Assembly (NCBI RefSeq): GCF_010729895.1 | Contig: NZ_AP022612.1 | Span: 186,001 to 250,000, forward strand | DNA: 64,000 bases | From: Mycolicibacterium confluentis | Lineage (GTDB): Bacteria; Actinomycetota; Actinomycetes; Mycobacteriales; Mycobacteriaceae | Direction of reading: 5' to 3' | In this document: in pieces, positions 13,516 to 53,808 of the stretch | Position numbering within the stretch: the first letter of the stretch is position 1 | Layout of the letters: each line of letters opens with the position of its first letter | Program-made: the position numbers and the translations under genes | The notes under the pieces: generated by a model | Database searches by the model: none | The model's input: only the letters and a program-made list of their open reading frames with translations | What the model was told of the DNA's origin: nothing

Positions 13516-14259
13516 ATGCCGGACACATCGCAACACACGATCCAGGGCACCGTGCTGACGATGCCGGTGCGGATCCGCAGGGCCGACAACCACGTGGCGG
13601 TGTTCACCGTGCCGTTGGAGGCCGCGCAGAAGATGATCGATTACAGCGGGCTGGAGGCGTACCCGTTTCTGCCCGGCAAGGCCGTCGTGATGCTGATGCT
13701 GGTGCGCTACCACGACGGAGACCTCGGTAAGTACCACGAGTTCGGCACCGCCGTGATGGTCAATCCGCGCGGTGCGCGCCTCAAGGGACCCGCGGCGTTC
13801 GGGTCCGCGGCCGCGTTCATCCACCATCTGCCGGTGAATCAGGGGTTCACGCTCGAGGCCGGTCGGTCGATCTGGGGATTCCCGAAGATCATGGCCGACT
13901 TCACGGTGCGTGAGGACCGCGGGTTCGACTTCGACGTCTCGGAGAACGGCCAGCTGATCGCCGGGATCGAGTTTGGGGCCGGACTGCCGCTGCCGTCGCG
14001 GTTGACGTCCGCGCCGCGGACCATGACGCAGTACAGCCACCTCGACGGTGTCACGCGCGAAATCGTTTCGGAGATGCGTAATTCCGGTATGCGGGTGCGC
14101 CTCGGTGGAGCGCGGCTGCGGCTCGGCAGCCACCCCTACGCAGACGAACTCCGCGCGCTTGGCCTGCCCAAGCGCGCGTTCGCCACGCAATCGTCGGCCA
14201 ACGTCGAGATGACCTTCGGCGACGCCACCGAGATCACGAGGGAGTCCAACAACTCATGA
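13516..14259 (+). CDS. Acetoacetate-decarboxylase-fold protein (Rv3519-like)
   Basis: A 247-residue protein with the acetoacetate decarboxylase fold. GRSIWGFPKIMAD at about residues 117-129 contains the lysine (K124) that matches the Schiff-base lysine of the family, and EFGTAVMVNP precedes it. Bona fide activity is unproven; related proteins act on other oxo acids or as hydratases. ATG at 13516 is preferred to GTG at 13513 because it matches the predicted transcription start. Its stop overlaps the cyp142 ATG by 4 bp, so the two are coupled and KstR-controlled. Role in sterol degradation is by context. Confidence 0.8.
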   Translation: MPDTSQHTIQGTVLTMPVRIRRADNHVAVFTVPLEAAQKMIDYSGLEAYPFLPGKAVVMLMLVRYHDGDLGKYHEFGTAVMVNPRGARLKGPAAFGSAAAFIHHLPVNQGFTLEAGRSIWGFPKIMADFTVREDRGFDFDVSENGQLIAGIEFGAGLPLPSRLTSAPRTMTQYSHLDGVTREIVSEMRNSGMRVRLGGARLRLGSHPYADELRALGLPKRAFATQSSANVEMTFGDATEITRESNNS

Positions 14260-15449
14260 CGGTAACCGTTCTCGATGTGGACCTGACCGACGGAAACTTC
14301 TATGCCAGCGGTGAGGCACGCGACGCCTACAAGTGGATGCGGGCCAACCAGCCGGTGTTCCGGGATCGCAACGGATTGGCCGCGGCCGCCAGCTATCAAG
14401 CCGTTCTCGACGCCGAGCGCAACCCCGAACTGTTCTCCAGCACAGGCGGTATCCGGCCGGATCAGCCCGGTATGCCCTACATGATCGACATGGACGACCC
14501 CGCGCACGTGCTGCGGCGCAAGCTGGTCAACGCCGGGTTCACCCGCAAGCGCGTCATGGACCGGTTGCCGTCGATCGAGCAGTTGTGCGACACCCTGATC
14601 GACGGGGTGATCGAACGGGGCGAATGCGACTATGTCCGCAGCATCGCCGCACCGCTGCCCATGGCCGTGATCGGAGACATGCTCGGGGTGCGGCCCGAGG
14701 AACGCGACATGCTGCTCAAGTGGTCCGACGATCTGGTGTGCGGGCTGAGTTCGCACCTCGACGAGTCGGCTGTGCAGTCGCTCATGGAGACCTTCGCGGC
14801 CTACACGGCGTTCACCATGGACGTCATCGCCAAGCGGCGCGCCGAGCCCACCGACGACCTCTTCTCGGTGCTGGTGAACTCTGAGGTCGAGGGTTCGCGG
14901 ATGTCCGACGACGAGATCGTCATGGAGACCCTGCTGCTCCTGATCGGCGGCGACGAGACCACGCGGCACACCCTGTCCGGTGGCACCGAACAGCTTCTGC
15001 GGCACCGCGATCAGTGGGACAGCCTGGTGGCCGATCCGTCCCTGCTCCCCGGCGCGATCGAGGAGATGCTGCGCTGGACCTCGCCCGTGAAGAACATGTG
15101 CCGGACCCTGACCGCCGACACCGAGTTCCACGGCACGTCGCTGAAGGCCGGCGAGAAGATCATGCTGATGTTCGAGTCGGCGAACTTCGACGAGTCGGTG
15201 TTCGGTGATCCCGACGAGTTCCGCATCGATCGGAATCCGAACAGCCACTTGGCCTTCGGCTTCGGAACGCATTTCTGTCTGGGCAACCAGCTGGCCCGGC
15301 TGGAGCTGCGGATCATGCTCGAGCATGTGCTGCGGCGGATGCCGGACCTGCGGCTGGTCGATGAGGATCGCCTGCCGCTGCGGCCCGCGAACTTCGTCAG
15401 CGGGCTTGAGGAGATGCCGGTGGTCTTCACCCCGGGGGTTCTTTCTTAG
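14256..15449 (+). CDS. cyp142: Cytochrome P450 CYP142, steroid C26-monooxygenase
   Basis: A 397-residue bacterial class I P450. The I-helix shows GGDETTRH, the K-helix EEMLRW supplies ExxR, and the haem-ligand loop FGFGTHFCLG puts the thiolate at C341. CYP142 oxidises the terminal methyl of cholesterol or cholestenone, redundantly with CYP125 where both exist. Redox partners are not adjacent; the ferredoxin FdxD at 26022 is one candidate. Coupled by ATGA to the upstream gene and followed by a long palindrome at 15537 that may end transcription. Position corresponds to Rv3518c. Confidence 0.92.
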   Translation: MTVTVLDVDLTDGNFYASGEARDAYKWMRANQPVFRDRNGLAAAASYQAVLDAERNPELFSSTGGIRPDQPGMPYMIDMDDPAHVLRRKLVNAGFTRKRVMDRLPSIEQLCDTLIDGVIERGECDYVRSIAAPLPMAVIGDMLGVRPEERDMLLKWSDDLVCGLSSHLDESAVQSLMETFAAYTAFTMDVIAKRRAEPTDDLFSVLVNSEVEGSRMSDDEIVMETLLLLIGGDETTRHTLSGGTEQLLRHRDQWDSLVADPSLLPGAIEEMLRWTSPVKNMCRTLTADTEFHGTSLKAGEKIMLMFESANFDESVFGDPDEFRIDRNPNSHLAFGFGTHFCLGNQLARLELRIMLEHVLRRMPDLRLVDEDRLPLRPANFVSGLEEMPVVFTPGVLS

Positions 15450-15536
15450 CTCTCCCGTCGCCTTAGCTCTCCCGTCGCCACGGGTCGTCCCCGGCTGGCC
15501 CCCTCCCGTCGCTTGGCAACCCTCCCGGCGTCAAAC

Positions 15537-15584
15537 TGTGCGAAATTGCAGGCCTTTCAACGAAAAAGCCTACAATTCCGCACA
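15537..15584. repeat. Long imperfect palindrome, copy 1 (left of DUF559 gene)
   Basis: The arms TGTGCGAAATTGCAGGC and GCCTACAATTCCGCACA pair with two mismatches over 17 bp, with further A/T pairing towards the loop. The same element recurs almost base for base at 16511-16558. Between cyp142 and the 3' end of the DUF559 gene it could act as a bidirectional terminator, though no long U-tract follows. Confidence 0.85.
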
Positions 15585-15586
15585 TT

Positions 15587-16451
15587 TCACCACGTCTTGG
15601 GGCATCCCCGCGAGATCAGCGCCGCACCCACGCGATCGTAGAGCCACTCCACGCGGTTGTGCAGGATCCCGGCATTGACTCGGACGTCGATCCAGCCGAG
15701 CTCCGGCAGATACCCGTACCTCTCGATGTCCCTGCGGCGCTGCCGGGGGTCGGTCCAGTGGTGCGCACCGTCGAAGTCGACCCCCACCTGGTACTCACGC
15801 CAGCCCATGTCGAGGACCGCGAAGATCTCGCCGTGCTCATCGAGCACCACGATCTGCGTCTCCGGTTTGGGAAAGCCGCGCTGCACCAGCAGGTACCGAG
15901 TCAGCGACTCATAGGGTGACTCGGCGCCGCCGTCGACCAGCGGCAGGGTCGTACACAGTTTGCCCAAGCCCCATGCGCGGGGGTGCGCGGCGATCAGCGG
16001 TTCGATGTCCTCGGCCTTGACCTGCGTGGCGTTCATGAGGGCGTCGATCCGCTGCACAGCGGCGACCCCCTTGAGGCGACGGCCGAGGTCGAATACGGTG
16101 CGCTCTGGCGTGGTGAGTCGCATGCCGGCCCTCCGGGCGACCTCGCCCGGCAGCAGAGTGTCGGTGTGCACCACCAGTCCTGCGGGTGCGCGACGGTTGG
16201 TGTGTGCGAGTTCGGCGGGTTCGGATGCGTCGATCCACTTGGCGCCGTGCATCGCGGAGGCGGACAGGCCCGCGAGTACGCCTTTTCGGCGCGACCACTG
16301 CCACGCTGCTTCGGCTCGCAGTCATTGCGACGTCGCGGCCCACCCACACGCCCGGGTACACCGGCACGTGCCGTCGGTGCAGGCCGTCACGGTTGACAAG
16401 GCCAGCGGCCACGGCCTCGGAGGCGCGAAAGGGCCGATTGAACTGCTGCAT
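15587..16451 (-). pseudogene. DUF559 endonuclease-like protein, broken by a frameshift
   Basis: Two open frames together give one mycobacterial DUF559 protein of about 288 residues. The N-terminal part begins with ATG at 16451 (MQQFNRPFRASEAVAAG) and reads to about 16318. The remainder continues in another frame as RAEAAWQWSRRKGVLAGLSASA and runs to 15587. Removing one base near 16315-16322 restores a single frame, so this is a frameshifted gene or a sequencing error; internal restart at ATG 16252 would yield 221 residues. The C-terminal half has the Vsr/PD-(D/E)xK-like pattern (ESPYESL, VGVDFDGAHHW, QRRRDIERYGYL). No function is proven for the family. Two near-identical palindromes flank it. 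Confidence 0.7.
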
Positions 16452-16510
16452 GCCCGCACTGTGTCAGCCCCGGCGGAATCCGGCCGACCGCCATCCACAG
16501 GCGGGCAAAA

Positions 16511-16558
16511 TGTGCGGAATTGCAGGCTTTTTCGACGAAAAGCCTGCAATTCCGCACA
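16511..16558. repeat. Long perfect palindrome, copy 2 (right of DUF559 gene)
   Basis: A 21-bp perfect stem (16511-16531 with 16538-16558, TGTGCGGAATTGCAGGCTTT...) around a 6-nt loop. It differs from the palindrome at 15537 by only a few bases. It lies beyond the 5' end of the DUF559 gene and downstream of echA19, for which it could serve as terminator. Confidence 0.92.
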
Positions 16559-16583: not shown

Positions 16584-17384
16584 CTACTTCATCTTGAAGT
16601 TCGGCGCCCGCTTCTCCTTGAACGCCAACGGGCCCTCCTTGGCGTCATCGGACAGGAACACCGGGATGCCGTTGGCGGTGTCGGGCTTGAACGCCTCGTT
16701 CTCGTGCATGCCCTCGGTCTCGCGAATGGTCTTCAGGATCGCCTGCACGGCCAGCGGACCGTTGTTGTTGATCACCTCGGCGATCTCCAGCGCCTTGTCC
16801 AACGCCGAACCGTCGGGCACCACATAGCCGATCAGGCCGTACGACAGCGCCTCGGCCGCGGTGATGTGCCGTCCGGTGAGCAGCAGATCGCACGCGATCG
16901 TGTAGGGAATCTGACGCACCAGGCGCACCGCCGACCCGCCCATCGGGTACAGGCTCCACTTGGCTTCGGAGATGCCGAACTTGGCGCTCTCACCGGCGAT
17001 GCGGATGTCGGTGCCCTGCAGGATCTCGGTGCCGCCTGCGATCGCCGGACCCTCGACGGCCGCGATCAGCGGCTTGGTCAGGCGCCGGCCCTTGAGCAGA
17101 CCGTCGATGCGCGACGGGTCGTAGCTGCCGTCCTTGAACGAATCTCCCGGCGGCTTCTTGGTCGCGGACTTGAGGTCCATGCCCGCGCAGAAGTAGCCGC
17201 CGGCCCCGGTCAGGATGCAGGTCCGGATGTCCGGATCGTTGTCGACGCGGTCCCACGCCTCGACCATGATCGAGAGCATCTCAGTCGAGAGAGCGTTACG
17301 GGCCTCCGGCCGGTTCAACGTGACGATCAGGGTGTGTCCACGCTGTTCAACGAGGGCGTCGGGTCCTTTTTCAGGCTCGCTCAC
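16584..17384 (-). CDS. echA19: Enoyl-CoA hydratase EchA19
   Basis: A 266-residue crotonase-fold enzyme. Oxyanion-hole segments are FCAGMD (65-70) and GPAIAGG (112-118); the two catalytic glutamates of true hydratases are present at E120 and E140 ([15 protein letters not shown]). It would hydrate the alpha,beta-unsaturated sterol side-chain CoA ester made by FadE enzymes. Start is GTG with AGGAAGG upstream. It is divergent from fadD19 over a 68-bp gap with a single KstR box, and the minus-strand end of that box reads into TACATT, a likely -10. Matches Rv3516. Confidence 0.9.
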
Positions 17385-20226: not shown

Positions 20227-20249
20227 CCCGCCTCCTGCGCTCCGCCGAG

Positions 20250-20297
20250 ACTGCTGTGAATGCGAAATAACTCTCGGAATTTCGCATTCGCAGCAGT
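20250..20297. terminator. Palindrome after the NPD-like gene, probable terminator
   Basis: ACTGCTGTGAATGCGAAAT (20250-20268) pairs with 20279-20297 over 19 bp with one mismatch and a 10-nt loop. It lies 24 bp after the stop at 20226 and ahead of the ilvX-like gene. There is no U-tract, as is usual for mycobacterial terminators. Its sequence differs from the DUF559-flanking palindromes, but size and A/T-rich inner stem are alike. Confidence 0.75.
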
Positions 20298-20330
20298 TTC
20301 GCGGCCAGGGGAGGGTGGTGAGGGGACAGG

Positions 20331-37890: not shown

Positions 37891-38175
37891 CCAGAACGCC
37901 CTCGCGCTGGGGTTTGTGTTCTGGGCGAGGGCGTCCTTGGCCGCTGTTGTGGTTCAGTTCTTCGTGGCGGCCAGGGCGTCCAAGAACGCCCTCGCGCTGG
38001 GGTTTGTGTTCTGGGCGAGGGCGTCCTTGGCCGCTGTTGTGGATCAGTTCTTCGTGGCGGCCAGGGCGTCCAAGAACGCCCTCGCGCTGGGGTTTGTGTT
38101 CTGGGCGAGGGCGTCCTTGGCCGCTGTTGTGGTTCAGTTCTTCGTGGCGGCCAGAGCGTCCAAGAACGCCCTCGC
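37891..38175. repeat. 90-bp tandem repeat derived from the otsA 3' end, with hairpins
   Basis: Three units of exactly 90 bp (37891-37980, 37981-38070, 38071-38160), nearly identical, plus the first 15 bp of a fourth. On the minus strand each unit holds the last codons of otsA ([10 protein letters not shown]), its TGA, and a hairpin with 10-bp arms ACGCCCTCGC/GCGAGGGCGT (for example 37896-37905 with 37925-37934). The rightmost unit is the functional otsA end. The array lies between convergent mam4B and otsA and gives three successive bidirectional hairpins. Differences between units are few (ggttcag/ggatcag, ccagggc/ccagagc), so the expansion is recent. Confidence 0.95.
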
Positions 38176-53533: not shown

Positions 53534-53603
53534 GTGCTGCTTCCGCCCGACCCTGGCCCGGCCGAGGTGCGTCGGCCCTCCTGCCCGCCAGCCTGACGGC
53601 GAG

Positions 53604-53652
53604 ACTTAAACGTCTGCGACGACCCTCGGCGTGTTTTCGCAGAGGTTTAAGT
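53604..53652. repeat. Intergenic palindrome near tRNA-Thr
   Basis: ACTTAAAC-g-TCTGCGA (53604-53619) pairs with TCGCAGA-g-GTTTAAGT (53637-53652): 15 of 16 bp with a single central mismatch and a 17-nt loop. Unusually A/T-rich for this genome. It lies downstream of both the 51-codon gene and the minus-strand tRNA gene and may end both transcripts. Confidence 0.8.
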
Positions 53653-53736
53653 GTCGCGCGGGAGAGAGGGCGGGGGTGCGCCGGAATGCGGGGATACGGG
53701 CCGCGGTCAGCGTGGGAGAGTGCCCGGTCAGCGTGG

Positions 53737-53808
53737 AGCCCCCTGTCAGGATTGAACTGACGACCTTTCGCTTACAAGGCGAGTGCTCTACCACTGAGCT
53801 AAGGAGGC
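53737..53808 (-). tRNA. tRNA-Thr (anticodon TGT)
   Basis: A complete cloverleaf of 72 nt: acceptor GCCTCCT/AGGGGGC, D-arm GCTC..GAGC, anticodon loop CTTGTAA with anticodon TGT, and T-arm GTCAG-TTCAATC-CTGAC. The discriminator is U and CCA is encoded next to it (53734-53736). One weak pair (C-A) closes the anticodon stem at the top. Confidence 0.95.

Follow-up and report, generated by a model that had tools for sequence, protein, structure and literature searches.

Among described systems, those closest to the one considered here pair repetitive extragenic palindromic (REP) sequences with REP-associated tyrosine transposases (RAYTs): a nuclease gene is flanked by short repeats, and solo copies of these repeats are dispersed through intergenic regions. 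They include the REPtrons, with an IS200/IS605-like Y1 HUH transposase and a GTAG-tagged repeat, and the TIRtrons, which are flanked by terminal inverted repeats (TIRs); REPtrons are reported not to self-propagate in the part of PMC3733652 consulted. A comparable arrangement is seen in Mycolicibacterium confluentis (genome G000; 5.88 Mb, single contig), in a 64,000-nt stretch hereafter called the window (positions 186,001 to 250,000 of contig NZ_AP022612.1), where two 48-bp palindromes enclose a frameshifted DUF559/Vsr-like nuclease gene as an island between cyp142 and echA19. We lean, at somewhat better than an even chance, towards reading this island as one member of a set of REP/RAYT-like nuclease-plus-repeat units, in which an unrelated nuclease of the Vsr/EDxHD type recognizes and spreads its own repeat. 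Such units work like a REPtron yet fail two of its defining features: in place of the HUH transposase there is a Vsr/EDxHD-like fold, and the 48-bp repeat of the window, with the family ends TGTGCGG...CCGCACA, has no GTAG tag. They further differ from REPtrons in that one genome holds many of them, each paired with a repeat of its own.

The two parts of the protein recall other known systems. In its modelled fold the C-terminal domain is nearest to the EDxHD homing endonuclease I-Bth0305I and to Vsr; it shares with the former conserved E, D, H, and D residues and a long target of comparable length, whereas the gene here is free-standing between two whole repeats, outside any intron or intein, and carries an additional AbiEi-like N-terminal part. 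The nuclease domain is alike in both sequence and fold to the Vsr, MTES_1575, and DUF559 restriction endonuclease (REase)-like proteins. The E. coli Vsr acts at T:G mismatches, and we know of no flanking repeats for any of these proteins. The N-terminal part, assigned to the AbiEi type by fold and profile matches to a modelled intact homologue, resembles the antitoxins of type IV toxin-antitoxin systems, but here it is fused to a nuclease, and the open frames between cyp142 and echA19, the one locus inspected, show no apparent gene for an AbiEii (DUF1814) toxin partner, as judged without a toxin profile search. “DUF559” is used here as a loose label; some homologues are annotated as DUF559 domain-containing protein and others as very-short-patch-repair endonuclease. 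Searches of the literature, with most subscription journals outside their reach, turned up no function for DUF559-like proteins and nothing that ties them to repeats, and no such tie appears in the portions consulted of PMC2267715, PMC12306157, PMC10117815, PMC3710099, and PMC10448857.

The left palindrome (15537-15584) is on the cyp142 side, 2 bp from the stop codon of the nuclease gene (15587-16451, minus strand), and the right one (16511-16558) lies between the start of that gene and the 3' end of echA19; neither is assigned a strand. An earlier note on this DNA, made from the letters alone, had described them as near-identical, and they are indeed real members of one family; a direct alignment over 53 nt gives 81% identity, and an inverted one over 51 nt gives 90%. 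The right palindrome has perfect 21-bp arms and the left is imperfect. A pattern that fits both finds only these two places in the window and none in 100 shuffles, which excludes chance as their source.

Matched repeats on the two sides are a recurrent feature of DUF559-like genes. A protein search with the intact homologue from a sister species (G182) located 13 such genes in G000, the broken one as two pieces. For each gene, the 450 bp to the left were aligned with the 450 bp to the right, and a score of at least 22 was taken as matched; as this cut-off was picked after the distributions had been seen, counts at 19 are also given. At 22, matched flanks are found at 10 of the 13 genes in G000 and at 48 of 67 loci from other mycobacterial species, a non-random sample made up of the best match from each of 29 genomes and 38 hand-picked matches (L354, which is the L231 locus, and L353, a 100-base dummy region, were left out of this count). 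Among 621 controls, genes of 600-1300 nt other than DUF559-like ones, only 13 reach the same score (5/149 in the own genome and 8/472 at named species loci); at 19, the corresponding counts are 12/13, 52/67, and 54/621. The gene-caller reading at L003, which looked antisense by eye, was kept as called. Twelve of the 13 own loci outscore all 30 of their shuffles, and random pairing of flanks between DUF559-like loci reaches 22 in 17 of 300 cases. The median length of the aligned repeats is 64, and they are quasi-palindromic to a varying degree, their median best self-complementarity being 8 versus 4 in shuffles, with 50 of 118 above the 99th percentile. As for orientation, in the TGTGCGG family, several members of which share one site, the 5' repeat is forward in 9/9 cases and the 3' repeat reverse in 8/9, and in the CGACGC family both repeats are forward in 7/7.

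The sequence of the repeat follows the relatedness of the protein. At first sight the closest relatives, L206, L207, L209, and L211, seemed to offer the same repeat at different loci, a claim that we rejected as all four share one site; the comparison of 59 loci with matched repeats was therefore limited to pairs with dissimilar outer flanks, and repeats scoring at least 22 against each other were counted as alike. Alike repeats were seen in 4 of 1485 pairs with under 55% protein identity, in 36 of 165 at 55-70%, and in 5 of 5 at 70% or more. The Mantel correlation between repeat and protein similarity is 0.289, the highest of 5000 permutations being 0.188. Thus, alike repeats at nonhomologous sites are nearly confined to proteins with 55% identity or more, which is the expected result if the protein recognizes the repeat. 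Within genomes, copies of the gene are at most 61% identical (52 pairs of matched-repeat loci), and many genes of the same family occupy homologous sites; this suggests that the gene is mostly inherited and that it is the repeat that spreads.

Most copies of the window's repeat stand alone. G000 has 15 family places, of which that at 332078 (E 0.67) is doubtful; another two matches, 14-15 bases long, were set aside. All copies are 48 bp long, and in each a variable 20-nt middle, self-complementary only in part, separates two arms of 14 nt that follow the consensus TGTGCGGAATTGCA and its complement. When the spacer was allowed to range from 14 to 28 nt, all seven exact-arm places had exactly 20 nt, and copy L026 retains pairing despite changes in both arms. 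The gene caller places nine copies between convergent genes, five between tandem ones, and one, the doubtful copy, between divergent ones. Thirteen of the 15 places have no adjoining DUF559-like gene, judged against the protein-search matches in G000; the TGTGCGGAATTGCA unit in this genome comprises 13 solo repeats, one doubtful, and a nuclease that is broken. The idea that the 48-bp palindrome is a general mark of DUF559 genes was rejected on this count. Of the REP-like, palindrome-borne cassette suggested in the earlier note, what stands is the association of matched repeats with DUF559-like genes generally and the tracking of protein relatedness by the repeats; what falls is the link of this particular palindrome to further DUF559 genes, none being found at the 13 other places. 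The exact-arm pattern occurs in 1 of 297 genomes of the genus, namely G000, and misses two diverged copies that G182 has at this locus. Two further searches with this pattern, which may not have covered G000 itself, gave no match. Sequence-identical palindromes in relatives were likewise rejected, a similarity search of 40 relatives (G182 not among them) having found none.

Solo copies are also seen in other families. Eleven other repeat families of G000 gave 51 match entries, and among the 40 of 131 candidates scored, at least 24 places, including a partial one, have no DUF559-like gene next to them. Two lie in the window, neither with a strand assigned: a second-family repeat at 20246-20301, whose family flanks the DUF559-like gene at G000:C1:783476-784258, and a third-family repeat at 53599-53657, whose family flanks the gene at G000:C1:5736192-5737022. 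The former is also present at the same site in G182. Eighty-two sequences were examined for this site, and in 11 others both flanks are adjacent, with 16-31 bp between them in eight and other DNA in three. On the simplest reading, made without a tree, the repeat was apparently gained in this lineage without a gene, and this flank comparison led us to reject, at least for 20246, the view that solo repeats simply mark where genes have been lost. Elsewhere in the window, a tRNA-Thr (53734-53808) adjoins a solo repeat of the L178 family, and two identical hairpin-forming 59-bp stretches lie 90 bp apart, start to start, at 37976-38124.

The nuclease gene of the window is frameshifted, as the earlier note held: the intact homologue aligns with it in two frames, at 16293-16451 for its N-terminal part and at 15590-16327 for the rest. 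The C-terminal open piece (15587-16252) keeps the E, D, H, and D residues conserved among homologues, and the N-terminal piece (16293-16451) is in the other frame. The larger piece matches only the Vsr-type REase family MTES_1575 in Pfam, under the cut-off of that family, and the smaller piece has no match. A Pfam scan of the intact homologue showed no Y1 transposase, the nuclease domain being of the Vsr type by precomputed Pfam labels and fold. The frameshift had been taken as the sign of a decaying element; this copy has decayed, but the gene at the island in G182 is intact. An estimate of the ratio of nonsynonymous to synonymous substitution (dN/dS) for L181/L269 was judged unreliable and discarded. 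Also borne out is the many-copied nature of these proteins in mycobacteria, with 4-17 matches per genome in 40 genomes.

Comparison of sites reveals a turnover of genes. In G182, the gene of the island lies in the opposite orientation between the same two palindromes. The L178 site is taken up there by another DUF559-like gene and the L177 site by one that has diverged and is inverted, and at the L174 site the gene has been lost through an imprecise deletion. The counterparts of L172, L176, L181, L182, and L183 are in place in G182, and the L173 site is empty, with no hairpin, in G012 and G278. By eye, L265, the G182 gene at the L178 site, has perfect 19-bp TIRs instead of palindromes. At L305/L175, the G000 unit at C1:1612898 occupies the position at which G182 has the remainder of a gene named by eye as VIT1/CCC1-like, and the unit may be linked to the loss of the 3' part of that gene.

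The site of the island itself, where cyp142 (14256-15449, plus strand) and echA19 (16584-17384, minus strand), both named after the earlier note, turn their 3' ends towards each other, is variable, and the comparison of filled and empty sites proposed there finds some sites with the gene, some with the gene inverted, and some with a single palindrome and no gene. A DUF559-like gene is present in 25 of 97 loci (two genomes counted twice; both neighbors within reach in 79/97), in the opposite orientation in three species. Eighteen loci have less than 130 bp between cyp142 and echA19, of which 13 carry one hairpin scoring at least 11, three being of ordinary terminator type and one genome being counted twice. 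Among the 25 filled loci, a hairpin scoring at least 11 is seen on both sides only in L074, L085, L132, and L161; in L150, L153, and L159 repeats on both sides are visible only by eye. By eye, M. colombiense 852002-51834 (L152) has a single intact repeat where M. vulneris (L132) has the gene between a pair of repeats from that family; L141 and L125 have the gene with the right-hand repeat. The echA19 3' end in L078, L079, L081, L082, L087, L089, L090, L099, L104, L127, and L154 shares a hairpin around GAGGCCCTGCTCGA, often with a T-run, which is probably an ordinary terminator; several of these loci have alongside, by eye, a small gene resembling those for proline-rich secreted proteins. In the window, a 17-bp tandem duplication, CTTAGCTCTCCCGTCGC, spans the cyp142 stop codon (15445-15478).

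The reading of the island as a REP/RAYT-like unit draws on the flanking association, the cognate relation of repeat and protein, the solo copies, a single case each of apparent solo gain and of inversion, the gene turnover, and the modelled fold; from these we infer that the nuclease protein binds, cuts, and spreads its repeat, and likewise that the unit is mobile. The AbiEi-like N-terminal part would bind the quasi-palindrome of about 50-65 bp, probably as a dimer, and the C-terminal nuclease would cut or nick it, upon which host repair or recombination could copy the short repeat into new intergenic sites and at times remove, flip, or swap the gene lying between two copies. The gene for the nuclease would thereby remain for the most part where it was inherited, and its cognate repeat would disperse in solo form, much as has been proposed for RAYT/REP. 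Counting against the flanking association are 18 DUF559-like genes at the cyp142 site that were caught among the control loci, only seven of which reach a flank score of 22.

A rather unlikely alternative is a homing-type cassette, in which the nuclease gene itself is mobile, its product cuts gene-less alleles or solo repeats, and repair copies in repeat, gene, and repeat, with solo repeats as targets or scars. The predicted fold of the C-terminal domain, nearest to the catalytic domain of a homing endonuclease, would suit it, as would the single repeat of L152 against the gene and repeat pair of L132, the right-hand repeats of L141 and L125, and, in G182, the different gene at the L178 site and the diverged, inverted one at L177. 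However, homing genes usually lie within the site that they target and split it, and here the repeats are whole on both sides of the gene. Nor does homing sit well with the low identity of the 52 within-genome pairs, with a solo repeat apparently gained without a gene, or with the scarcity of DUF559-like genes on plasmids (6/72,556 records) and phages (1/50,697 records).

It is improbable, in turn, that the palindromes are simply bidirectional terminators at gene 3' ends, with a DUF559-like gene merely inserted between two of them, the plain alternative raised in the earlier note. The hairpins are stable, unrelated hairpins occur at the same 3' end in other species, and nine of the 15 family copies lie between convergent genes, against 24 of 157 gaps of at least 60 bp in a sample from the own genome. 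Yet this leaves unexplained why matched repeats on both sides are frequent at DUF559-like genes and rare at ordinary ones and why repeats follow the protein subfamily; moreover, 3 of 13 solo copies of other families sit between divergent genes, and many repeats make poor hairpins. The right palindrome of the window forms a strong hairpin with TTTT on the minus strand, the left a weaker one, and other families vary; the 48-bp palindromes may also act as terminators, which does not conflict with nuclease-driven spread. Quite improbable, finally, is that the repeats are only operators, autoregulatory sites of the AbiEi-like protein that were passively duplicated and spread by host recombination, with the nuclease serving defense or another task. 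The AbiEi-like fold and profile matches speak for it, and, according to the part of PMC7319586 consulted, the promoters of AbiEi antitoxins carry inverted repeats to which these antitoxins bind. Against it, the repeat flanks the gene on both sides and not upstream alone, solo copies occur at other places, many of them next to the 3' ends of genes, and the locus has no apparent toxin partner.

Related arrangements may extend beyond the genus. With 700-bp flanks, 24 of 29 loci from elsewhere in the order reach 22, but so do 76 of 300 shuffled pairs, and three members of this set (L369, L371, and L378) are contig-end loci with wrong coordinates. DUF559-like genes with matched palindromic flanks are seen in other families of the order at L356, L363, L366, L370, and L372, all but L370 being clear by eye; palindromes of a similar kind are common between genes in those groups.

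More generally, we advance, tentatively and at slightly less than an even chance, that the AbiEi-Vsr fusion nucleases of mycobacteria, and probably those of other actinobacteria, represent an independently evolved equivalent of RAYT/REP, each owning, recognizing, and multiplying one family of quasi-palindromes of about 50-65 bp, and that they jointly explain many of the unexplained intergenic palindromic repeats. One repeat family per DUF559-like protein would give these many-copied proteins a testable role and would offer an origin for the intergenic palindromes of these genomes. If true, nuclease-driven spread of short repeats would have a second enzyme class, unrelated to the first, and the many natural pairs of protein and target would be useful for studying how nuclease specificity evolves.
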